Shown: one piece after another, positions 654 through 60,503 of the stretch
Layout: the number at the start of each line of letters is the position of its first letter
Numbering within the stretch: position 1 is the stretch's first letter
NCBI GenBank assembly: GCA_027405735.1
Contig: JAPEHQ010000006.1
Location: 1,674,001 to 1,738,000, forward strand
Length of the DNA: 64,000 nucleotides
Direction: 5' to 3'
DNA from: Mucor racemosus
Taxonomy: Eukaryota; Mucoromycota; Mucoromycetes; Mucorales; Mucoraceae
The notes under the pieces: generated by a model
The model's input: the letters and a program-made list of their open reading frames with translations, nothing else
What the model was told of the DNA's origin: nothing
Databases searched by the model: none
Made by a program: the position numbers and the translations under genes

Positions 654-679
654 GGCTCCGTGGCCATAACTGGGGTTTG
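654..679 (+). repeat. Left terminal inverted repeat
   Basis: Starts GGCTCCGTGGCCATAACTGG. Compared with the reverse complement of the right end, 20 of 26 positions agree, the best block being GCCATA-CTGGGGT. It abuts the target duplication directly. Confidence 0.85.
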
Positions 680-690
680 ATCCGACTAGA

Positions 691-732
691 TTTTTTTTTT
701 TTCAGGAGGGCGAAGCCTTCCTGAAAAAGAAA
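691..732. repeat. Inverted repeat (hairpin) inside the transposon's left end
   Basis: A T-run followed by TTCAGGAGGGCGAAGCCTTC and then CTGAAAAAG folds into a stem of about 12 bp with one bulge and a small GC-rich loop (GCGAAG). It lies between the left terminal repeat and the 3' end of the transposase gene. It could be a transcription-end or 3'-end signal, or a protein-binding site; nothing else in the sequence decides. Confidence 0.5.
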
Positions 733-1006
733 AAATTCGGTAAAATGTGCATTAATTAATGAAAATATGTCATTTCGATTAAAAAATACTAAACACATTA
801 AATCCTAGCTTAAATGTATCTATATTTCCAAGTTATTGTATATATATACATTAGATTAAGATCAAATTTGTGTAAATTGAAGAATGAAAAAAAGCAGGTT
901 TATGAGACATTGGATTGTTTTATTGAATCTGTAGTCGATAATTTCAGTTTAATGACTTGAGTTAGTGGTGATAATGAGTAATAACTTGGATAAAAAATTT
1001 ATAAAT

Positions 1007-4000
1007 CTAAGGCGAGTAATGCTTGCAGTTTTTTATATGTTGTTTTCCTGGACATTTATACATGTTTTCAGGATCAATTGCTTTACATCTGGTACACCTT
1101 CTTGTTCTAGGTTTTTTTACAGAATTAATATCAGTTGTCAAAAGTACAGGACCTGCAATGAGTTGAGAGTGATCAGGCTGTAAAGGATCATCAGATTTTC
1201 TCTTGTTTGAAGTTAGTGGAGCAAATGAGAGACTACCTCGAAGAGGTGATGGGAGAATAGCAGGAGGAAAAGATGCAGCTGGTCTTTTTGAAGAATCAAC
1301 TGCGTTCTTAACTTTTTTGATCATCTCTGCATTTTGAGGGATCTTGACACAGTCTTTGTAGGTATTGTTACTTTGATACTTATTGAAAAAAGATTCAAGA
1401 ATCTCGGGTATCTTATAAAACACTACTGGCTGCTGATTTTCTTTGAGTTTTCCATTAGTGTGATTGCAGCGTTTACACCATTCTTGAGCCATTTCCATGA
1501 AATCGGGGTTGGTCTTTTCATGCATTTTCAGATCATTGTATATGTTCCAAAACAGTATTCTCTCTTCATCTGTATGTACAGGTACAATAGCATACTTCAC
1601 ATTCTGGCAGCTTGCAAGATATTGATACTGGGATAAATTTAATTTCGAGGCTTTAATCAATGGTAATGCAGAGAGCTGCAAAACTTGGGTAACCAAGGAA
1701 TAACTACTAGAATCAACATCACTAGCAATGCCATCATCAGAAACATCTTCAGTATCAGTAGGCTTGTTTGAAGGCGCATCTTCGTTCTTTGCAGAGTCAG
1801 ATTCGTTGAATGGCAACATGTTGAAATATGCTCTTGCAACGTCTGATATAGGACAAATACCGAAAGTTCCACCTTTTGGATCAAAATGGATAGCATTACC
1901 ATCAGGATCATGGTAAGATCCTTGTACTGTAAGACCGAGTTCACTTTTTAAATGGTTGATGCCATGAGTTAGCCAAGGATTGTAATGACCAGTATGCTTT
2001 ATATTGTATCGATTCAAAGAACCAACCTTGAAGAAAATATTTAGTAACAAGCTCTTTCATTTAACTTATAATATACTTACATCAGTATTATGTCGAAGCC
2101 TATAATCGGCTAATAGACAATTTGTCAATCTAGGGGAAGCATTATACATCGAGAATTTCCTTATAATATTGGTGTGAACACCACCCTCCAAACTATTGGT
2201 TCCTCTGACACAGCGATAGACTGGGAGACCGAACTCATCAATTCTTCTTGTATAATATAAAGGTACACCAACAGGATCCGAAATATGGCCTTTACTGATT
2301 GCATCGAGAATCTTGGCAGCTTGAGATTGACATTGTTTGTCGAACAGTTTTAGACCAGTCTTGAGATCCAATGAATTACCATAATGGCTAAAGAGAGCTG
2401 CAACAACCGGATAAAGTTGCTTTGGAGGAGGAATTGTGCGTCTAATCCGTTTGGAAATCCAGCTAGGCCTTGCTTTTACCATACGGTCCCAGGTTATCTG
2501 GTTGCGTTTTAAGGCTTCGGTAACCCGTTTCTTGTCTTCTTCATTCACGAGAAACAAAGCATCTCGAAAACGAGCCATAAACTCCTTGTGCATTCCATGC
2601 TTCTCCGAAACCGAGATGAAATCCATTAGGTGAAAAGCGTCTTTAAGCACCAAAGTTGGAATAGTAGCAGCCTCATCAGCTTGTAAAGGAGTTTCATCTT
2701 CAATATCACTTCTGGCTGTACGCAAACAGCGGGTATCGACGTTAATAATCAGGAACTCATCCTTAATAGCCTCAAAGGTTATTCTATTTCTATCGGAACT
2801 TCTGTTATCGTGGCTACAAATTGGTGCAAGAGCTCTATACTTGAAGACATTCAAGACCTTCACCGGCAAACATTTACTACAACCTTCGGCTCTTTCAACA
2901 ACCTTTCCAACGGCTAATTGGCGACCTCTACATGTATTTGACGTAGCATATAGGTTGACATACGTGTTAATAGATACAGGTTTCTTAATAATACAATTAA
3001 GTTGTGGCAAAGCATCCATTGCGGCATTCAAATGTAAAGCTACATACGCATCATTTGCAGCATATTCTCTTTGCTCCTTGGTAAGATCGGAGGACTCCCA
3101 ATCACCGCATCTTATTCCAACTGGCTTTGGTAAGTACTTTCCAAAAATGTCTTGACAGAGACTTTGTAATGAGCACCCCTTCAATTTGTCCACGTAGCCT
3201 AACTCCAAATACTTGCTGCTTAATTCAATAAAAGCAAATGTATCATAGCTAGCTTTAGAAATTGCATAATCTCGGGACAGCTTCATAAGATCTTGCTTGA
3301 CAGAACGTCCAATCTTTACAACATCATTACATTCAAGCAGAGTTTTGAGGTGTCTTGGTAAGTGAGCTCTTTTCTTCAAATGGAATAAGTAAACATTGTC
3401 TTGATGCGCAATTTGTATTAAAGAAACCTTCTGAACGATTGTTTTAGTTCTAATCAGATTAACATTCCATTCGCAGTCGAAGCCAATGTAAACTGGAATA
3501 ACTTCGCCGGTATTGGGGTCTGTTTGCAAATAATCAAGAATTCTTGACGCCATTAAATCCATCTGTTTGCCTGCTGAAAGATATAAAACTGTGACATTAT
3601 CAGGGACCTTATAATGAGGGAGATTGGGATTTCCTTCTATTTCACTATTTGTGTGGACAACATTTTTTGTCAATGAAGGTATCCATTTTTCCAAAGATTG
3701 CTGATCACCAACGACATTATCAGTGTAAAACACCTTTGGCTCGGGTTGTTGGTTTGCAAGGTATGTCTTCATCATCTGAGCAAAGCTTTCTTCTAATTGG
3801 GGAAGTGATTTAGTTGATGCTAAGACCATCATGCGAATTTCTTCAAATTCATTGCACAACGTATACAAAGCAGTAAAGATAGAGACACCATTTAATTGTG
3901 CGATTTGCTTGATTATCTTAAAAGTATGATCTCCTTTTAGTATAATACCACCAAGCTTCATCATCTCAGAATCAACACGGTCCTTGATATTATCCATGTA

Positions 4001-5191
4001 GCTAGTATACACATATCCAATATAAGAAGCCGAAGGAACACTACCGTTGTAACCTTTTTTATCATGGAATTCAGAAAACTCGGCTGCCTTCCCATTCCCA
4101 AAGGAGTTATTTGACTTATGCGAATAAGCTGCAGCAAGATATTGATACTGGAGTTTATCGTATCTTAAATGATGCATTTCTTGAAGGGTTTTGTGCAGAC
4201 GTCCTGGACCAACTGAATTTTGCATCAATGGACGTAATAGGTCAACTAACATTATTGAAATACCAGATTTGTGAGTTAAAAGAGCCGGGAAATCACTTTG
4301 TACATGGTAAGGAAGCTGTCGGATGACTTCACTGTCGTAACCTGTATAACTATGCTTCGTATTTTTGGAACATACATAGCGAGAAGACATCATATAAAAT
4401 GAGCTAAAATAAGTAGTTTAATTATAAAGTTGTCATAGATAAAAATATTATTACTTACTCGTTGACATCAATAATACGGCGAGCATTTTCCAAAAAGCCT
4501 TTAACATTTAGATTACTATCACATTTAGGACAAGAAAGTTTTGATTCACCCGGCATTAAATATTGAGGAAACCACAAAAACAAGCGAGGCATGTATAACA
4601 CATCCGGCCTTGGCCATCCTTGATTATGGTACACATTAAGATTAAAGCTAGGACTACCTTGAGATACCCAGAAAGTCTTTCCTTCAGTGTATTCGGAAGG
4701 CGCTTTACCACGATTTGGGCCCTTTCGCAATCTATCAAGAACCTTCTTCGTTAAAATGTCCACTGGACTATCTTCTATGATTTGAAGAAACTCTTCTTCT
4801 TCTTTATGGATAGTAGACATATTGATAGGAAGAGTATCTTGATCTTCATCATCGTCATCATCGTCATCATCAGCGTCTAAACCGTCGTCTAAAGGCACAA
4901 AGGTAGCATTGAGATTCTGGTTTGCGATTACATTTGCCTATGTTTACATATTGTGAAAATATTAGAACGCTGCTTAACATTAATGATAGCAACTTTTAAG
5001 ATTACCTCAGAATTAGAGTTTTCGGCTAATAGAATCGAGTCAGAACTTGATGTCTCGTTTGATGGAGAACTACTTTGATTGTTTGATTCGGTCATGAAAA
5101 ATGAGTTCAATATCTTTTGAGATGGGTCTATTATCTTTTTGTTTCTAGAACCATTTTTTCGGCCACGACCAATATTGTTAGACTTAGTCAT
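1007..5191 (-). CDS. DDE-type transposase with inserted DEDDy 3'-5' exonuclease domain
   Basis: Four exons: 5191-5006, 4937-4459, 4403-2081 and 2026-1007, all with GT-AG introns (68, 55 and 54 nt), giving 1,335 aa in one frame. Order of parts: basic N-terminus (residues about 8-19); Asp-rich run (79-96); zinc-ribbon-like region with C198xxC201 and C233, resembling the fungal DUF6729 region; then GDHTFK (D380) and YTDNVVGD (D450), which look like the first two catalytic Asp of an RNase-H-fold transposase. Next a WRN/RNase D-like exonuclease, about 515-690: FDCEWN (D531, E533), KQD (D593) and YAANDAY (Y669, D673), a complete DEDDy set. Then DAFHLMD (D810, H813), similar to the MULE CxxH site, and RGTNSLEGG (E961), the candidate final Glu. 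The C-terminus has C1307xxC1310, C1321 and C1330. Exonuclease call is strong; transposase reading is motif-based inference. The ATG at 5191 is the first in frame. Confidence 0.85.
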
Positions 5192-5508
5192 TTTTTGAAT
5201 CAATTAGAATAAGAAATCTAAGATAATGAAGCACAACTCGAAGGTTTTATTATGACAGATTTTACATATTTATATATTTTTATTAACTCTCAGGGGTTAA
5301 GATTGCGATTAATTGACATTTCAAGGTCAAGCAGGGTTATTAAGACCCCTTCATTTTAATAATAAGATTAATTTTTAACTTATTGGGGTTTAATGTATGA
5401 TTATTGTTATTTGGCTATGAAACTTCTCAACAAGATTCACTTGTTTTATCATTTTTTCTGTAGATTGTTGGATATTATCTGTTGAAATCAGGCACATTTT
5501 GTACATTT

Positions 5509-5660
5509 AAACTCAAAATGATATTTTTAAACTCAAAAACTAATATTTGAAGCTCAATAACTAATATTTCAATCTCAATAACTAGAATTAAAACCCAATA
5601 ACTAGAATTCGAAGCAATTTTATTGGCTTACAAATAAATTCAAACCCAATAACTAGATTA
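5509..5660 (+). repeat. Subterminal 21-bp tandem repeat array of the transposon
   Basis: Five adjoining degenerate units of 20-21 nt start at 5509, 5529, 5550, 5571 and 5591, each reading about AAnCTCAATAACTAnnATT. A sixth, detached unit lies at 5642-5660. The array sits 50-200 bp inside the right end, upstream of the transposase gene. Such arrays are commonly transposase-binding sites; here that is inference from position. Confidence 0.75.
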
Positions 5661-5683
5661 TCCGACCACTTGATTGGATAAAA

Positions 5684-5709
5684 CACACCCCAGCTATGGC
5701 TTGAGAGCC
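5684..5709 (-). repeat. Right terminal inverted repeat
   Basis: Reads, on the minus strand, GGCTCTCAAGCCATAGCTGG followed by GGTGTG. It mirrors the left end and is followed directly by the second copy of the target octamer. Confidence 0.85.
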
Positions 5710-5717
5710 AAAAATGT
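5710..5717. repeat. 8-bp target-site duplication, right
   Basis: AAAAATGT, identical to 646-653. The following bases (from 5718) continue the R1 sequence as in copies B, C, D and E. Confidence 0.9.
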
Positions 5718-6404
5718 CAAAATTGATGATCTGGACAAAAATAATTTTCTAAATTAATATTCCGCTTATAAGCTTTATAAGTCTTAAAAATAAGAGATTT
5801 TATTATACTTGAGAACTTTTTCAAGAATTTACGATGCTGCTGTACCCACTTGATTCAAGCTTATTACTTTAAATCTTTATACATGTTAATATTGTGTGGT
5901 GGTTCATTTGATGATAATATAATCTTACTTTATAATTATTGCGCTAGAGGTGATTTACATTAAGTTGTAGTCTTACATCTCCAATAATATTATAAACATA
6001 AACATGGCCATCGCTGGAACCTATTGCCGTCTTTTTACTCTCTTTATCCCAATCCAGTTTATTCAATGCTTTACCAGAGCCAACTTAAGTACTTACAATG
6101 GTTCCTCGGTATTTGCATTCAAATTCTATAAATTAAATTGACTGGCTCCATCTACAGTAGTATCAAACGTATCATCATCCCGCCTTATGATAAATGTTAG
6201 TCTAAAATCAGAAACATCCTATTGTCATTGTTATAAGCTATGAAAAGCTTGATTTTTAATAATACAGCAATTAAATAAAAAACAAGACGATACTAATAGT
6301 ATATGGTGAGTATTTAACATCTAAGTAAATAAGTTTGATAAAGTATGCTTTTAAACCCTTTTAAAAATCTTGAGGCAAATGCAACATCTTGGTTCTGTAA
6401 TTGT
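5718..6404 (+). mobile_element. R1 element copy A, right part (truncated)
   Basis: Continues R1 after the inserted transposon and matches 9117-9470 and 25746-26420. Like copy C, and unlike B and D, it keeps the longer segment after position 6070. It stops at about 6404, where another repeat begins, so its right end is lost. It contains a copy of the captured WD40-like fragment, annotated separately. Confidence 0.8.
5990..6170 (-). pseudogene. Captured dynein intermediate chain-like WD40 fragment (copy A)
   Basis: On the minus strand, broken frames read VDGA, then KALNKLDWDKESKKTAIGSS and DGHVYVYN. This resembles the final WD40 repeats of cytoplasmic dynein intermediate chain. The fragment lies inside the R1 element and is shared by other R1 copies. 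Stops and frame breaks show it is not translated as a whole. Identification is from motif memory, not from a search. Confidence 0.55.
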
Positions 6405-7362: not shown

Positions 7363-10300
7363 CACTAAGGCCAACCTGTGCTGCACAAGATGATTTTGTT
7401 GTGCCCAGGTGGGCTGCACACTATAGCCTGAGCTGTTGTGCCACTGAATAATGGCTAAAAAGATAACACGATGCACATGGGTACAACAAAAGAAACTGCA
7501 CACAAGCACAACGAAAAGCCTACTGTATATGTGCAGAATTATAGATTCTGTCCATGTGCATGACATTAATCCCATGAGTGCGTAATAGTAGAATTGGCCA
7601 TTAGCATATCATTATCCTTATTTGTGCATAATAATAAAATCGGACCATGAGAATAATGAGCTGATCGTATGGGCACAAATTGGTTTGTACATGACCATCA
7701 CGCCGTTCTCAAAATTCCATTGCATTTTTCACTGGAATAATGGGTTTTTAAATTACATTTGCTTTTATTAATATAGATTATTATAGACAATAATACAATT
7801 CAATGCGTTGTTGATGTAGAGCAATACATGCAAGCCGAAACTAAGGTTATAAACGTTACTTTATCACACATAAAATTTAAACAAATTAATCTTCTTTAAA
7901 CTTACTATTTTAGTTTACGATTATCAGCTGTAAAAAGATTGGTTTTCAATCATAGCTACGATCAAAACTATGGTTATTATACAAGACATCAGATTATTCT
8001 TTTTTTATTTTTGTTCTATATCATTTGAAAATTTATCACTTTCCTGGAACATTTCTTGAGTTTGTAGCCAGATCTAGATTTTCATTGAATAGATGTAGAT
8101 ATCGTTGCCTTTTTTGATTTGATCTGGTAATCATCAAGAAATACGTCCAACAATACAGTAGCAAATAATGATATTTGATCTTAGTATGCGGTTAAATAAA
8201 AATATCAGTCTCCAATATAGACTGCTACTATCTATATCAAAAATATCAGTTCCTTATGTTAGCATGCGTATTCAGATAAAAGAAAAGTATATCAGCTTAA
8301 TAATAGCATGATATGCCTTATCAAACGGTGGATATATCCTTGGAATATGAAAACAAAAAGAGAGAAACAACACACGTAGAAAAGGATTTTACAAGGCTTT
8401 ACATTATTTAGCGCAATTAAAACCCTGCTAAATTACACATTTCAGCCAATGTAAAGGCAGCATTACAGCGCATAAACCATAAATGAAACAAAATAGGCAA
8501 TATCTGCTATTATCATAGAACCATACATTTTTCTATTAGAAAAACCGTCTGTAATACCATACATTCGTTACAAAATTGCAAAAACGAGCCCGTAGAGCGA
8601 CGCCATAATTGAGCATAGCAAGATTGAACGGCTAAGTCTCTTGTACTATGGTATATCTAAGTTTTAAATAAAAATGCGTTTCTTCTTTTTTAACTTTTCA
8701 TATATTTAACCACGTACGGTCTGAAAATTCAGTTTTTGTAGCGGACATTTTCGGGGCCCATTTTATCCTTACCAACACTCATGATTTTCATCAAAAAATA
8801 GAAAAATCAAATTTTAATACCAAAATCAACGTTTAAATACACTACATTATGAGAGAAAATTGTAGCAATAGCTAATACGCACCTTATAAAAACTTAATAT
8901 TAAATGTTAAGTAATGAAAATTTGTACTTTTGTCCGAAAAACGGTTTTTTGATTAAAGGATTTTCATGTAATATTTTGCAATAAAAATATTGTATATTTT
9001 TTATTGAGCAAATAGAGCGTTAAACGTTGTATATATGTATATTTTTTGTTTTTATAATTGGTAGTATAATTAACTCTAGATTTGCAAAATTAAAAAAAAA
9101 AAAATTAAAAAATGTCAAAATTGATGATCTGGACAAAAATAATTTTCTAAATTAATATTCCGCTTATAAGCTTTATAAGTCTTAAAAATAAGAGATTTTA
9201 TTATACTTGAGAACTTTTTCAAGAATTTACGATGCTGCTGTACCCACTTGATTCAAGCTTATTACTTTAAATCTTTATACATGTTAATATTGTGTGGTGG
9301 TTCATTTGATGATAATATAATCTTACTTTATAATTATTGCGCTAGAGGTGATTTACATTAAGTTGTAGTCTTACATCTCCAATAATATTATAAACATAAA
9401 CGTGGCCATCGCTGGAACCTATTGCCGTCTTTTTACTCTCTTTGTCGCAAACCAGTTTATTCAATGCTTTACCAGAACAAACTTACTTTTGACCTATACA
9501 AATTGATTTACTAGTAAAATTAATTAACAGGTTCATAAGTAATGATTATGGTGTACCTTTGAAAGTTGGTAGTGGTATACAAGACAACAACTTGTTTTCC
9601 TCTTCTTAGCTGTTGGCCACTAAATAAAAACAAATACTTTTTAGAAACTAAATAGACTAACATGAGTTTATTCATTCATTAATTCATTGAAATCAAGTAA
9701 ATACTTTACATACTTGTATAATAATCACCCATTTTTCTGTAGGTAGATATCGACTTTAGACCAAAAAAAGCATTGATTACAAAGTAGGTGATGAAGCAAA
9801 ATGATTAAGTCTTGGATGCTTTTTTTATTCGAGGAAGATTTTATAACGCGCCCTAACATTAATAGTTGATAATTCATTTCCAAATATGCAATAGAAGAAA
9901 CATGTACTTGTACCTGTTACTTGATTTCAGTTTATAAAAAATATCGGTCTTTTTATTGTAGTTTTAAACATAAACAAAAGAGTGGAGAAGAAAACAGAAA
10001 AATAATCCTAAATCAGTCGATTTTGTGTGTTTCAAACAGAAATTTACAAAGGCATACTGTAAATACTTTTAGTGTTGCTAAACAGGTTGTTGTTGTTTTC
10101 GTTGTTCCCATTTGGTCCCCGAAAGAAGAACATGGGCAGAACTCTTTCAAACCCCAAATTTCAAATTGATATATCTCGTCAATTAAGGCAATTTTGTTGA
10201 ATCAAAGTAACTCACATTTGCTTCAAACCGTTCAAATTATTTTTGTTATTAATTAATATTATAATTGATATACTTCAGTAAATTGACTAAAAAAACTTGA

Positions 10301-14239: not shown

Positions 14240-16000
14240 TTAAGCCTTGAATTGATCTTCAGTAACACCCTTACCCATAGCAGCAGTGGCAGCAACACCA
14301 CCAGTAACAACCTTGATAAGTTCATCAACATAAGTAGCACCAGACCACTTTTGGTGTTGGAGAACATCAACGCCATGTTCACGTTCCTTACGTTGAACTT
14401 GGCTGACATAACCGAGCATACCATCTTCCTTATAGGCCTTGGCAAAGGTGGAAGAAGCCAAAGCATTAGCATGAAGACCACCCAAAGTAATGAATTGCCA
14501 GGCAAAACCGAGTTTACCCAAATCATGAATGTAAGACTTCATGTTGTTATCATTTAAACCAGCAGCATCCCTAAAATAAAGATATGAATAAAATGATAAA
14601 TTATATAAATGAATAGAAACTTACCAGTTGAAAGAGGGAGACAAGTTATAACACAAAAGAACCTTGGGGTGAACAGACAAGACACCTTCAGAGAATTGCT
14701 TGGCTTGAGAAAGGATAGGCTTCTTGGTTTCCATCCATAACATATCAGCAAAAGGAGCAAAGGCAACGGCACGAGAAGTAGCAGCTTCAGTGCCACCTTC
14801 ATAACGATAGTAACCTTCACGGACACGGGGCAAATCCCAATCCCAGAAGATCTCAACACCATATTCCTTTGCAATGGCACGAGCTTCCTTGTTGGACTTG
14901 TAGTGAATCTTGGAAAGGAATTCCTTGGCAGCATCAGCCTTACCTTGCTTGACGAGTTCATCAGCAACGGCAACACCATAACGCTTAAGACCAGCCTTAG
15001 CGATCCATTCATCTTCAACAGCTTGAAGAGCAGCACCGTTCTTACCAGCTTGTTCAGCTTCATTCATGAGTTCAGCCAAAGCACCAATATTAGCGTTAGT
15101 AGTACCAACAACAAACTCATGATCACGGGGATCAATGTTAGAAGTCAAGAGAGTGGCAGCTTCAGCATCAGAACGAGCGACAATCAAATTCTCAACACCC
15201 ATAATATCGTATTGAACACGAATAGCAACCAAACGGTTAATGTGTTCTCCGATGGGGACCAAGACCTTACCAGCCATATGACCACACTTCTTGGTACCTG
15301 GTGCTTGATCTTCAACTAGTGTATGTATATAAAACATTTAAGTATTTTGTTTGATTACCAAATATGTGCCTTTTTTAAGACTTTTCTGTCTGGGTGGGAA
15401 TTTGATGATTAACTTACCATGCATACCAGCAGCACCACGTTCAACAAACATCTTTGCGAGCTTCATAACAGCAGTGATACCACCATGACCAGTATCACCA
15501 TCAGCAATGATAGGTCTCAAGTAGTCAATAGCGGGAGTATTGGCACGTTCTTCAGCAGACATGGAAAGACGAGCTTCACGTTGCTTGCGATCATGGAAAA
15601 GTTGAGCAAAGAAGAGATGCTCAACCTTGTTAGGGACAGTATCCATAGGATAATCAGCAAGATCAGGTCCAGGTTCATTAGAGCTGGAAGCGGTGGAAGA
15701 ACATTGCCATCCAGAAACATAAACGGTCTCAAGATGAGGAGCCATTTGAGTTACTTGAACGGGATCAAGAGCACCAAAAGTGTGAGAGGCAGTACCATTA
15801 GCCTTGTGGTTTTGCAAAAGCTTCCAAACCTTCTTGGCTTGAACATCAGAACGGTATTGAACAGGGAAATAACCACGCTTAGCAACAATGGCTTCAGCAG
15901 AATAAGGACGCTTAATGTTTTCGAAACGAGGAGAAGCCCACCATTGCTTTACCTTTTCAACCTCTTCGAGGAAAGCTTGTTGTTCGTGGTCAATGGTCAT
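14240..16000 (-). CDS. Isocitrate lyase
   Basis: Cleaves isocitrate to succinate and glyoxylate, the first committed step of the glyoxylate cycle used for growth on acetate and fatty acids. Exons 16000-15418, 15315-14625 and 14570-14240 (introns 102 and 54 nt, GT-AG) give 534 aa, the normal fungal length. The catalytic signature KKCGHM lies at residues 203-208, just after the first splice junction, inside [18 protein letters not shown]. The nucleotide/metal-binding stretch [11 protein letters not shown] and the conserved LSPSFNWDAAG at the second junction are intact. The C-terminus ends QFKA, with no canonical SKL-type peroxisome signal. It reads in the same direction as the upstream protease gene, whose stop is 391 bp before this start. 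That gap must hold its promoter, where carbon-source control would be expected. Confidence 0.97.
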
Positions 16001-16391: not shown

Positions 16392-19300
16392 TTAAAGATT
16401 TTTAACGGCTTCCCCCCACTGATTAATGGTCCAGCCGTTCTCTGCTGCTATTTTATCAGTAGATTCACCTAATAATGCAATAGAATATTCATTTTGTTTG
16501 AAAGGTGCATCTAAATATTCATGTGCAACTCGTTTAATGTCATCTTGAGTCACCTTTAAAAGTGCTTCACGGCGCCTAATTTATATATATATATATATTT
16601 TAGATTTATCATTATAAATACACAAGCAAATAAACACTTACATTTGTCTCATTTCATCAGATACTCCATTCACAAATTGAAGCATACCTTCTTCTGATAC
16701 ACTTTGAGGTGAATCAATACCTTGGAAAATAGATAATTTGGATTCTGTAATTTCTTGATCTGTAAATTTACGTTGTTGTACCCAATCAATGGATTGATTA
16801 TAAGTATCTAATGTCTCTAATGTACGAGGATCTCTGTAAGAATAGAATGAAAATATGCCATTTAATCCTGCATAGCGAGCTCCACCTCCATAAGCACCAT
16901 TCTTTTCTCTTATCTCACGATGAAGATAATGATTAGTCATTAAAGATGATAAAACTTGCAAACTAGCTCCATCAGCATGTGTATAAGGTACACCACGAAG
17001 TACTTTAGCAGAGAAATTTACTTGGAATGGCAATGGGAAAAATGTTTTCTTGTAGTGAGGTTTAAAAACGTTCTATTGTAAACATATAAATAAATGCCAT
17101 CATGAATGTGCACATGCTTAGTGGACTTACGGAATCAATATTGCTGGAGATAGATTTACCCTCAGCAGGTAATCCTTCGATAAACTTGACCAAAGCCTTT
17201 GTGTTACTTTCAACTGCATCTTCACCTGATGTAATAGCAATACGAAGTGATGATTGAGTCAAAACTGCAGATGCAATTTGCTTTAATTTATCAACAATGT
17301 CAGACATATCTTCTTGTGCTGCAAGGCGACTCATGAAATTGACTTGTGTCATACCACCCATAATTTCAGCATTATGCATACCAGGTGTAAGACTAGATCC
17401 AGCAAAAGTACGAGCAAAGATATGACCAGAATCTGCAATAGAATTTACCATGGAAGATGCATTACCATTGATCAATGTCTTGAGTTTTTCAACATCATCA
17501 AAGTTGGTTTCATGAATCAATTTGGCTAAAATAGTATACATTTTGTCGATATTGCGATCCAAACAGTTACCAACCAATGCAATGCCTTCTTCAATATGAT
17601 CAATATCAGAATGGTTAGTAGTTAATGTAGTAGAAGCACGAAGACCACCAGTATAAAGTCTGATTTCATCATCGATCTCAGCCATGGATTGTTGACGAGT
17701 ACCCAAAGATAACAATGAATCACAGAATAAAGGTAAATACAATTTCAAATCATCAGAAAGCGTGGGTAATGTACTGATGGCTCTAAAATAAGTGATGCCG
17801 TTGGTAGACGTAGTTCTCCATTGAACAGGTGTATTGCAAAGACCTGTATGTTCCAAAATACTATGCTTTGCTTTGAGTGCAATGTCGCTCAATTTCAAGG
17901 AGGGTAAACAAGATAAATCCTCTGTACTGTCTTGAGATGCCAACAAATCTTTGCCATCTTGAGCAATTTGTTTCTTATCATCTTCAGTCAATGCTCCTAC
18001 TTTTTTGGCTAATCTGTCCTTTTCTTCTGCTAATAAATCGGCACTATAATTCTCTTCAGGGCGCATAACAAAGGATAAGGTGTGGTTATTTTGCAAAAAG
18101 TATTTATCGATACGGCTTTGGAAGAAATCTCCATTGGCTAATTCTGCTTTAAGACGATCAATGTTCTATAAAAATTTGTTAGTTTGTGCTGCTTTTTATC
18201 TAGCACTGGCTAATATCTTGCCTTGTTAACTTCTAAAAGATCGACAGGGTCTACACCATTGAACCATCCTGAAGTGACACCATGCATGATGGAAAGACCG
18301 AAATCAGCAGTTTTCTAATGGTACGAATTTAGCATAATTTGGCATTTTATATACTCTAGACAACTTACATGCTTCTGACTGAGCTCCATTTGATGAATTG
18401 CGGCTTCAATACGTTTGGGGTCAAAGCCTTCTTTCTTTACTTGTTCAAGAACAGATGTAATTGCAGATTTTACTGTATCAACATCTGAATCTTTGACACC
18501 TTGCAAGCCAATTGACATGCAGCTTGTCCTTTAATAAAAATGTCATGTTAGTATACATGCCTTGTTTCATACAATTACTAACTTACTTGGTGCTGTTATC
18601 GTAGCCAGTATTAGATGAGAATTCTGAACCGAGATTGGTATCGATTAAAGCCTTATACATTGGCGATGCATGTCCGTCCAACAAAAGATAGGACAATAAG
18701 CGCATGGAGAATGTCTCAAAGGTATCCTATAAAAGATATAATTAAATCATTGGAACATTATCAATGTTGATTTAATATTTCACATACGTTAGATTCATTT
18801 GTAAGGTAAGATAATGAAAGCTTTGTTTGTCTGTCAATTGGGCTCACTATTATTCAATTAGTAAATGGCATTTATAATATATTACAATACTTACTGGGAT
18901 CCAATGCACATGTTGTCTCGACACTCTTGGGTTCACTCCAAGGCGTAGCTACCTTATTCACAAAAGGTACTTCAGATTTCTTGAATCCTTGAAGACGTTC
19001 TCCAACTGCAGCCAAATGATCCTCCAATGGGAAATTACCATAGGTGTAAAATCTAGCATTACTAGGGTGGTAATGCTTTTTGTGAAAATCAAGCAATTGT
19101 TGATGTGTTAAATCAGTGATATATTTAGGATCTCCTCCACTACAATATTCGTAGGTAGTTCCAGGGAACATGGCTTGTTGCATACGAATGTAATATAAAT
19201 AATTGGCATCAGACTATTGAACAATAATTAGAAATACTGGGATTACTATTATGCAAAATAACCTACTGTTTGACCCTTCATTTCATTATATACAACACCC

Positions 19301-31057: not shown

Positions 31058-31129
31058 TCCTTGATGGTCTAGTGGCTAGGATTCGTCGCTCTCACCGACG
31101 CGGCCGGGGTTCAATTCCCCGTCAGGGAA
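31058..31129 (+). tRNA. tRNA-Glu (CTC)
   Basis: Full cloverleaf of 72 nt. The acceptor stem TCCTTGA pairs with TCAGGGA (one G-U), the D arm is TGGTCTAGTGGCTAGGA, and the anticodon stem CGTCG/CGACG holds loop CTCTCAC with anticodon CTC. The T arm is GGGG-TTCAATT-CCCC. The A-box and B-box (GGTTCAATTCC) are intact, and there is no intron. Confidence 0.97.
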
Positions 31130-31308
31130 CATTTTGTTTTACTTCGCAATAGTGGTGTTTGTAGCAAGTTTTTCGTAGATCTTTTTTTATTTATTTTTGA
31201 TATATAATGTCTAATATACTCATTTAATTTGATTGCGATTTATTTTATTAATTAATCAAAGAAGAAATAGGTATAGAAGAAAGACTAGTATTAATTGTAG
31301 CAGTAATA

Positions 31309-39569: not shown

Positions 39570-40334
39570 ATGGCCACACCATCAGCAGCACCATTTTTCA
39601 CCTCTAATGAAACAAGTAGCTGGCTACTTTACATCTTGACCGATTCTGCTTTACCGACTGGTGGTTTTGTTGCATCTTCAGGTTTAGAAGCAAGCTGGCA
39701 AGCTGGGCTTATCGACAATGAAAATTTGGGAGCCTGGGTAACCTCCTCAGCACACAATTACGCTTCCAACACCAATTGCTTTGTAAGAGCAGGCTATGAA
39801 GCACCCGATCACGAAGATCCACTTGCTTATTTAATAGAATCAGATAATATTTGCGATGCAGTGATGGCAGCGAATACCGTAGCTAGAAGAGCTTCATTAG
39901 CACAAGGAATTGCCATGTTGACTCTTTACTTAAAGTGCTTTACAGATAGTCCTGAGAATGTTCCAGAACAAGAACACAAGAAAAATATGGAAGTCGTTAA
40001 AAAATGGAAGAGCATGATTCGAGGTGAGAAAATCGATGGGCATTTTGCAATTTGTTATGGTCTCGTTTGTCGCTATCTTAAAGTCGATCTCGAAAACACA
40101 CTTCATCTATGGCTTTACCTTTTTACTCGTACGATTTATTCTAGTGCAGTTCGATTGAATGTAGTAGGCCCTTATGAAGCACAGAAATTATTATTACAAT
40201 CCAGAAAGCCTATTGAAGTTATTATCAAAGAAACAAAAGATATAGGCATTGAGGATTGTTGTCAAACAAATCCACTTTTAGACGTATGTCAAGGCATGCA
40301 TGATAGACTTTATTCTAGATTATTTAATAGTTAA
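39570..40334 (+). CDS. Urease accessory protein UreF
   Basis: Single exon, 254 aa. UreF works with UreD/UreH and UreG to load nickel and CO2 into urease. The N-terminal block WLLYILTDSALPTGGFVASS GLEA is the family's hallmark, and the region LWLYLFTRTIYSSAVRLNVVGPYEAQ matches the conserved C-terminal helices. Length is normal for fungal and plant UreF. It is convergent with HIS1: the two stop codons are only 41 bp apart, so the 3' UTRs must overlap. It implies that the organism uses nickel-dependent urease. No urease structural gene is in the window. Confidence 0.93.
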   Translation: MATPSAAPFFTSNETSSWLLYILTDSALPTGGFVASSGLEASWQAGLIDNENLGAWVTSSAHNYASNTNCFVRAGYEAPDHEDPLAYLIESDNICDAVMAANTVARRASLAQGIAMLTLYLKCFTDSPENVPEQEHKKNMEVVKKWKSMIRGEKIDGHFAICYGLVCRYLKVDLENTLHLWLYLFTRTIYSSAVRLNVVGPYEAQKLLLQSRKPIEVIIKETKDIGIEDCCQTNPLLDVCQGMHDRLYSRLFNS

Positions 40335-58605: not shown

Positions 58606-60503
58606 TTAGTTTTCATAATCATTCAAAATCAAATCAGATGCTTTTTCTGCACAAGCAATTACAGGGAAACAAATTTGGCCTGCTGGTACAATTGGAAAGA
58701 TAGATGCATCAATTACTCGAAGACCATGTATATCATGAACCTTAAGGTTTCCATCAACAACAGCATTTCTATCTTCAGCTGATCCCATCTACAATTTTTT
58801 GTCAGTTTGTGCATTTACAAAAATAGTGAGAGCTATACGTTTTACCTTGCAAGTACCTGCATAGTGATGCAATGTATCAACATGATCTTTGATATATTGC
58901 TTTATATCCTGATTTTCGGTAGCATTATTATTCTCGTATGGATGTAAAACCCAACGCTTAATACAATTTTCTTTATATTCTTCGTCATTAGCAATCTTCA
59001 TGGATAATTCCAATCCCATTTCAAGACATTTCAAATCTCTTTCATCTTGTAATAGTCCAAGGTCAATAATTGGTGTCTTATCTGACTTCAATGTGACAGA
59101 ACCCCTTGAGAAAGGAGAAATATAAACCATTAATAAAGTTGCACAATCGATATCTTTCAGTTTAGGAAGCTCTCTACACAAAGCTAAACCACCAGTGAAA
59201 AGTTCAATTTGAGGAGTATCTGTAAGGCTACTACTGTTATCAGGAGAGTTCTATGTATGCAAAACATTTTATTTAGTACAGAAATTATTGAAATTGTTCC
59301 ATTGTTCCTAAAGCTTCTTACAGGGACTTTCATATATGCCACAGCATCTGGCCATGCTCTTGCTAAAGCACTTTTTTCATTCAAAACAGTGATGCGTTCG
59401 AGGGATTCTTTCTCCCTTTCAAATATACTACGATGAAGTGACATTTCAGGTTTAGTTGTTTCGTGAACAAGTGGGACACGCCAATGATTTTGGAGATTCT
59501 TGCCTACGCCCGGTAAATCGACAATTGTTTGAATGCCCATGGTTTCCAATTCTGATTTAGGTCCAATACCACTAGATAATAACAATAAAGGCGATAATAT
59601 AGCACCTGCGGACAAGATTGCTTCTTTACCTACAGATACTTTATAGAGCTCGTCTTTATTATTATCAGTAGTGGTAAAATACTCGATATGCGTCACTGTA
59701 TTGGTTTCTTTATCAACAATAATGCGGGTCACGGTGCAGTTCAAAGCGATGGAAAGATTAGATCTATTTTGCTGAATATTTGGAGGTAAATAAGCAGAAC
59801 CTGTTGATGTTCGTTCACCCTGATGTACAGATGATTGGATACCAGTTACACCTATTTGACAAGGTAAATCTGTCATATCATGATATTGTGGGATGCCATA
59901 ATTCTGACATGCTTTTGTAAAATGCTTTCCTAAAATTGAGGTATCATCCTGTTGTTGCATTACATTTAATGGTCCAGAGAGACCATGCAAGTTCTCAGAA
60001 ACAAATAAATGTTCATCTTGAAATGTTTCGGCTTTACAAAAGTAATGCTTTAATTGATCATATTCCCAACCTGGCATATTCCAAGAGTCGAAATCAGATG
60101 GCGAACATCGATGTGATAAGCAAGCATTAATAGCGCTTGAGCCACCAAGGATCTTTCCTTGTGGTACGCCGATACTTCGGTCATCTGCATGTGGTTGTGC
60201 GGTGGACTTGAATTTCCAATCAACATTTGTGTTTTTTAATTTGCTATTAAAAAGAGGAATTCTAACATTTAATAATTCTTCTTGAGTATTAGAGCCTGCT
60301 TCGAGAACGAGAACTGTGTGTTTTCCATTTGATGACAAACGGTTTGCAAGGACACTACCAGCAGTACCTCCTAAAGGGTTACAGATATATATATTAAGCT
60401 CCAAAGAGTTTTTTTTTAAAAAAATAATAGTTTATTGTTTACCGCCAATGATAACAAAATCAAATCGACTGAGGTTAGCTTCGTTTGGTTCAAGTCGCGG
60501 CAT
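58606..60503 (-). CDS. GMC oxidoreductase (FAD-dependent)
   Basis: Exons 60503-60443, 60370-59322, 59250-58846 and 58788-58606 give 565 aa, the usual length for glucose-methanol-choline oxidoreductases. The dinucleotide-binding GGGTAGSVLANRLS is split by intron 1, ending in LVLEAG. GKILGGSSAINACL is the first GMC signature, and GAILSPLLLLSSGIGP the second. The C-terminal FAD-contact region reads HDIHGLRVIDASIFPIVPAG. In many relatives the residues after VPAG or IPAC include a His or Asn of the active site; here the sequence is QICFPVI, with Gln. LHHYAGTCK is conserved. No signal peptide and no peroxisome signal (ends LNDYEN). Substrate unknown; choline or alcohol dehydrogenase-type enzymes are the nearest by feel. 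Confidence 0.93.

Follow-up and report, generated by a model that had tools for sequence, protein, structure and literature searches.

A Dada-type transposon candidate in Mucor racemosus with an exonuclease inserted into its putative transposase core and tail-to-head junctions bearing six base pairs of flanking DNA

With respect to protein layout, the closest described systems are found among the Dada transposons. In Dada elements of Laccaria bicolor and Ectocarpus siliculosus a DEDDy exonuclease is present at the same position of the transposase as in the protein reported here (Kojima & Jurka 2013, PMC3706591); the excerpted text of this paper gives no target for these two groups of families. 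According to the same excerpts, Dada-U1 shows an apparent 8-bp duplication, and its tandem copies are parted by the last six bases of this duplication, which Kojima & Jurka read as a 6-bp duplication (PMC3706591). Among bacterial elements, ISCth4 of the IS256 family is described in the excerpted portion of PMC7780238 as producing A/T-rich 8-bp duplications and as forming junctions whose spacers consist of 6 to 8 bp taken from the flank, integration being best at 6 bp; IS256 transposases are stated there to resemble MULEs. KolobokD, finally, is a eukaryotic DDE transposon of the C/DxxH group which carries a DnaQ-type exonuclease (PMC9587614, in excerpt). A preliminary description of the present gene had known of no described family with an exonuclease at this place, a statement which does not hold in view of Dada. 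The layout has thus been described since 2013, and what is new here is the surrounding element and its junctions.

The window, i.e. the entire analysed stretch of 64,000 nucleotides, harbours at 1007-5191 on its minus strand a gene whose four exons (joined as 5191-5006, 4937-4459, 4403-2081 and 2026-1007, with GT...AG introns) yield upon spliced translation an intact protein of 1,335 amino acids with a single terminal stop. All ten residues named in the preliminary description are found in this protein at the numbers assigned to them, and re-splicing together with this residue check bears out its claim of an intact gene with the motifs in the order given. Taken as a whole, we hold it to be reasonably probable that the gene belongs to an intact, recently active and autonomous DNA transposon of Dada type, from the exonuclease-bearing branch, which moves partly by copy-out/paste-in. 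Its features within the window are as follows.

654-5709, minus strand: whole element, 5,056 bp
646-653, unstranded: 8-bp target site duplication on the low-coordinate side, AAAAATGT
5710-5717, unstranded: 8-bp target site duplication on the high-coordinate side, AAAAATGT
654-679, unstranded: terminal inverted repeat at the 3'-of-gene end
5684-5709, unstranded: terminal inverted repeat at the 5'-of-gene end; the flank here supplies the 6-bp spacer in tandem copies
8866-9365, plus strand: paralogous empty site, corresponding to the flanks joined with a single copy of the duplication
5006-5191, minus strand: exon 1, amino acids 1-62
4459-4937, minus strand: exon 2, from the spliced translation
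2081-4403, minus strand: exon 3, reaching to amino acid 996 and carrying both candidate Asp residues, the exonuclease, DxxH and the candidate Glu
1007-2026, minus strand: exon 4, amino acids 997-1335, with a Cys/His-rich tail at its end
4004-4622, minus strand: DUF6729 (Pfam), split by intron 2
3929-3931, minus strand: D380, candidate first catalytic Asp, in GDHTFK (spliced translation, alignment A3)
3719-3721, minus strand: D450, candidate second catalytic Asp, in YTDN (spliced translation, alignment A3)
2984-3493, minus strand: DEDDy 3'-5' exonuclease domain, about amino acids 526-695 (Pfam, alignment A3, profile search)
2630-2641, minus strand: DxxH motif, D810 to H813 (spliced translation, alignment A3)
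2186-2188, minus strand: E961, candidate catalytic Glu, in RGTNSLEGG (spliced translation, alignment A3)

Pfam, applied to the open reading frames of exons 2-4, matches DUF6729 and DNA_pol_A_exo1 (E 2.9e-15); the sole further match at E<=1 is a weak one to a ribosomal protein (E 0.18), and in these exons no known transposase family is matched at this threshold. In a search with a ten-row profile, WRN exonucleases (E 1e-34 and 5e-34) came out as the solved sequences closest to the exonuclease. All of the 49 DUF6729 matches listed for the genome fall within copies or pieces of elements of the present kind, and the sequences suggest that DUF6729 of Pfam is the N-terminal portion of a transposase; a literature search on this domain found no paper. 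This Cys-rich N-terminal region probably binds DNA. Three Cys residues and one His (C198, C201, C233 and H239) are located in the part of the window protein where Dada has its CCCC finger, upstream of the first catalytic Asp, four Cys being seen by eye in the relative P0026, and the C-terminal tail contains C1307, C1310, C1321, H1326 and C1330, whose spacing is unlike that of the published CCHC of Dada. For a profile of IS256, 13 transposases were translated from loci L051-L063, 12 of which were used while L060 was dropped as too short. Comparison with the profile of the window protein by hhalign results in a probability of 0.6-2%, and the observed score was attained by 2 of 60 and by 4 of 60 block-shuffled controls; at this level the similarity is at or barely above chance and not significant.

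Three protein searches provided 30 distinct relatives, the named sources of which are Mucor, Circinella, Phascolomyces, Apophysomyces and Blakeslea as well as the basidiomycete Roridomyces; one of them, P0028, is DNA polymerase I, a weak match. Alignment A3 comprises 27 rows, namely P0001-P0026 and the window protein, P0027-P0030 being excluded. Its rows are interrelated, not independent (P0001 is 98% identical), and all residue counts refer to those rows only which bear a letter at the respective position. Among the transposase candidates, D380 is present in 26/26, D450 in 26/27, D810 and H813 each in 18/19 and E961 in 17/18 rows; for the exonuclease the corresponding figures are 24/25 (D531), 24/24 (E533), 21/24 (D593), 22/22 (Y669) and 20/22 (D673). 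The exceptions are N at D450 and D593 in P0023, Y at D810 and D673 in P0006, T at H813, A at E961, E at D593 and N at D673 in P0016, V at D593 in P0012 and H at D531 in P0008. Judged from these rows, the conservation of both sets of residues is far beyond chance. The assignment of D380, D450 and E961 as catalytic residues of a transposase, put forward in the preliminary description, agrees with the homologues collected here, in which the exonuclease residues are conserved too, and the identity as a transposase gains support at the sequence level from the matching ends and target duplications described below.

In the window protein, the first and second Asp are 70 residues apart, the second Asp and DxxH 360, and DxxH and the Glu 151. 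In P0010 from Apophysomyces, which is devoid of the exonuclease, the corresponding distances amount to 70, 51 and 151. P0027, a far relative likewise without exonuclease, matches in its N-terminal part with E 6e-15, the match of its C-terminal part (E 0.12) not being significant, and contains a D, D, DxxH, E set with gaps of 75, 22 and 199. Because of these spacings in P0010 and P0027, the exonuclease appears to be set into a single, defined position of an enzyme which is continuous apart from it. That it follows the second Asp and precedes DxxH and the Glu, as claimed before, is supported by Pfam, by A3 and by the spacing in P0010. As a side observation, the gene model of P0015 from Mucor saturninus fuses a relative to a domain listed as PF13358, which we take to be a DDE transposase family.

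Since relatives without the exonuclease exist, the domain is suggested not to be essential to the core. The transposase might even work independently of the exonuclease, the latter being a passenger or fulfilling another task such as countering host defence or degrading donor DNA. We consider this conceivable, if somewhat doubtful. It would be in line with P0010 and P0027 lacking the domain, with only the Laccaria and Ectocarpus families of Dada being reported to possess it in the excerpts of PMC3706591, and with a mean pairwise identity of 37% within the exonuclease compared to 48% and 50% within the two core parts. Yet, most relatives have retained the catalytic residues of the exonuclease, so that it is probably used for something, and its absence from P0010 may be a real loss or an effect of an erroneous gene model.

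The element surrounding the gene is bounded by imperfect terminal inverted repeats, 20 of the first 26 positions matching between both ends of the window copy. In the genome (53.2 Mb in 54 contigs) the 5,056-bp element is present in full 16 times, the copies other than that of the window being 0-3 bases off the latter; partial and broken copies occur in addition. A second family with about 61% protein identity measures 5,113 bp (L018-L020), and a third one with about 37-41% protein identity, found on contig C1, measures 5,352 bp. Integration makes an 8-bp target duplication, which is exact at 17 of 19 sites (one of the 17 being obtained by pairing the contig ends of C13 and C26), while it comprises 7 bp at one site (C1:6869659) and 6 bp at another one on contig C39. 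The latter site is doubtful as, by eye, its left flank has a piece resembling the element's own end. The paralogous empty site within the window differs from the joined flanks by 1 mismatch in 500 bases.

Contig C39 (L005-L007, 19.8 kb) contains three tandem copies, and in its left flank the element-end-like piece is found beside a C13-like flank; this left flank perhaps represents another haplotype or a deletion product. In L025 (1-1500) a truncated copy is broken by a sequence which, by eye, looks like Tc1/mariner and has inverted ends. A contig binned in a metagenome-assembled genome (MAG) of Sporosarcina psychrophila (L031, 1-5556) carries a relative of the C1-family element with about 92-96% DNA identity over the compared stretches and the 8-bp duplication CTTGCTAT on both sides (read by eye); it is probably eukaryotic contamination of the Sporosarcina bin.

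Scans for small RNAs covered flanks of 12-635 bp. The 27 loci and 19 joined empty sites scanned with ARAGORN contain no tRNA gene, and Rfam at gathering scores gave no match in 20 loci, a threshold below which split halves of snRNA genes could fall. Another 14 loci, among them seven empty copies of two target repeats, yielded a single Rfam match, a fragment of large-subunit rRNA in L048 (2287-2668; 3' end of the model, 65.8 bits), situated about 0.8 kb from the target motif of the second repeat; two other empty copies of this repeat, L047 and L049, are without it. The first of both repeats, a 21-mer of which occurs 1,609 times in exact form in the genome, is found in the window at 5718, 9116, 25747, 55510 and 58187, and the insertions L002, L016 and L019 have entered it at positions which agree to about one base. 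The second repeat (1,365 exact 20-mers) has received three insertions of the C1 family and, from the main family, the C12 array; the loci concerned are L032, L034, L039-L042 and the flanks of the C12 array. Despite some insertions at the same position we do not claim target specificity for either repeat, given their abundance of 1,365 and 1,609. Ordinary genes neighbour the element in the window, namely those of isocitrate lyase (14621-16000), an M16C-type peptidase (17062-18096), tRNA-Glu (31058-31130), UreF (39570-40334) and a GMC oxidoreductase (59184-60404).

Tail-to-head junctions were searched as right end, 0-30 nt of any sequence and left end, both ends being exact. Seven were obtained, six of the main family and one of the C1 family, all of which possess a spacer of exactly 6 nt; the same search for exact ends 0-30 nt apart reveals none for the 61% family. 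Three different spacers occur among the seven. Of the six junctions of the main family, five have the same spacer; these may stem from a single event, and the contigs on which they lie may represent pieces or haplotypes of a single locus. The C12 array shows the outer duplication AAATTTTT and the spacer AAATTT, the C13/C26 array the outer duplication AAATCGCT and the spacer AAATCG, and the C1-family dimer the outer duplication CTTTATAT and the spacer TTGCTA. In all three junction types the spacer is identical with the last six, not the first, bases of a duplication (read in gene sense), which adjoin the 5'-of-gene end. As to the C1 dimer, the duplication in question is that of a single copy about 39 kb away (C1:1562615), CCTTGCTA, whose last six bases equal the dimer spacer. 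The chance of such a match is about 4 in 4,096, calculated for four other C1 sites and equal base use. Hence, this junction probably arose at one copy, from whose flank it took six bases, and is now part of a dimer located elsewhere; no other dimer has a spacer which derives from a different copy.

Ordinary cut-and-paste, as described for the related eukaryotic superfamilies hAT and MULE, could be considered for the present element as well, with the tandem copies originating from insertion beside an older copy or from unequal crossing over and with the 6-bp spacers as mere by-products. Unequal crossing over could indeed extend an array once a dimer exists; the first dimer, however, cannot arise in this way. 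Insertion into a site composed of the last six bases of the duplication plus GG does lead to a 6-bp spacer, but it puts a GG in front of the outer copy. This extra GG is missing from the arrays C12, C26 and C1, whose outer flanks end in the plain duplication, so that we reject insertion beside an older copy as the source of the arrays. In addition, the spacer which the C1 dimer owes to the flank of another copy is left unexplained. We therefore regard cut-and-paste as unlikely. The data on the 6-bp spacers fit copy-out/paste-in of IS256 type better, and while the transposase proposed in the preliminary description is supported, the cut-and-paste transposition assumed for it has become doubtful, the junctions pointing to end-to-flank joining as in copy-out/paste-in.

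By analogy with IS256 and ISCth4 we infer that the element moves at least partly by copy-out/paste-in. A single protein unites the DUF6729 region, a putative DDE core split by the WRN/RNase D-type exonuclease before DxxH, and the Cys/His-rich tail. The 3'-of-gene end would become linked to the flank 6 nt beyond the 5'-of-gene end of the same element or of a sister, giving rise to a tail-to-head junction, within a circle or a dimer, which bears 6 bp of donor flank. Such junctions are directly observed in the genome; the transposase would presumably be the agent joining them. The circles or dimers would then integrate or recombine. In the C1 case the data are compatible both with a circle which integrated by recombination with a copy already in place and with movement of the dimer as a unit. 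Joining of an end to the flank would free a flank-side 3' end, which constitutes a plausible substrate of the exonuclease. We conjecture that the exonuclease is an accessory insertion whose likeliest work would consist in trimming this free end. The wider proposition that the Dada-type superfamily moves by copy-out/paste-in, with the built-in 3'-5' exonuclease processing the displaced 3' end of the flank and with the 8-versus-6-bp puzzle of Dada-U1 as the same signature, seems to us evenly poised between right and wrong.

That D380, D450 and E961 are non-catalytic, that their surroundings adopt no RNase H fold and that the protein is a host nuclease which happens to be repeated would accord with the missing Pfam transposase match in exons 2-4 and with the non-significant match to the IS256 profile, but is highly improbable in view of 16 near-identical copies with matching ends and target duplications and of three acids plus DxxH conserved in the order published for Dada (excerpts of PMC3706591).

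Within the transposon favoured here, the exonuclease layout is present in copies which are intact, nearly identical and evidently recent, and for which the exact ends, the target sites and an empty site are available; this renders the layout directly testable. On the genomic side, the junctions with 6 bp of donor flank are evidence that circle formation, as known from bacterial IS256, may also be employed by a eukaryotic transposon from the hAT/MuDR/Dada group. Furthermore, they offer a reading of the ambiguity between 8 and 6 bp reported for Dada-U1 in the excerpts of PMC3706591, where the spacer, as in the junctions described here, consists of the last six bases of an 8-bp duplication. Circles of Dada are not reported among the titles and abstract openings listed, most subscription papers lying outside this search.

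The comparison with Dada is confined to motifs and published descriptions, no protein named Dada being among the 30 relatives. At the motif level, and as far as the excerpts of PMC3706591 go, the window element shares with Dada a DDE triad in which DxxH lies ahead of the E and past the second D, conserved in order, the DEDDy exonuclease between the second D and DxxH (in the exonuclease-bearing families), the presence of introns, a length inside the published range of 4.7-11 kb and a similar spacing of the first two Asp residues (70 compared to 68 in Dada-U6_DR). It differs by its 8-bp duplication (17/19 sites), compared to 6-7 bp in Dada, by imperfect terminal inverted repeats, whereas the excerpts state none for Dada, and by the absence of a small-RNA gene from the scanned sites, whereas Dada inserts inside snRNA and tRNA genes. 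Because of these three deviating traits we designate the element Dada-type rather than a confirmed member.

With IS256/ISCth4, as excerpted from PMC7780238, it has in common the A/T-rich 8-bp duplication, tail-to-head junctions with a spacer from the donor flank (6 bp being optimal there and the sole length here) and D, D, E residues with C/DxxH, the CxxH of ISCth4 being located 21 residues past the second Asp and the DxxH of P0027 22 residues past it. Unlike the present element, IS256/ISCth4 is bacterial, and an exonuclease goes unmentioned in these excerpts. According to the excerpts on KolobokD, this element is also a DDE transposon of the C/DxxH group which encodes an exonuclease; the latter, however, is of the DEDDh type (TREX/ERI1-like), in contrast to the DEDDy type of the window protein, and the duplication of Kolobok is TTAA.
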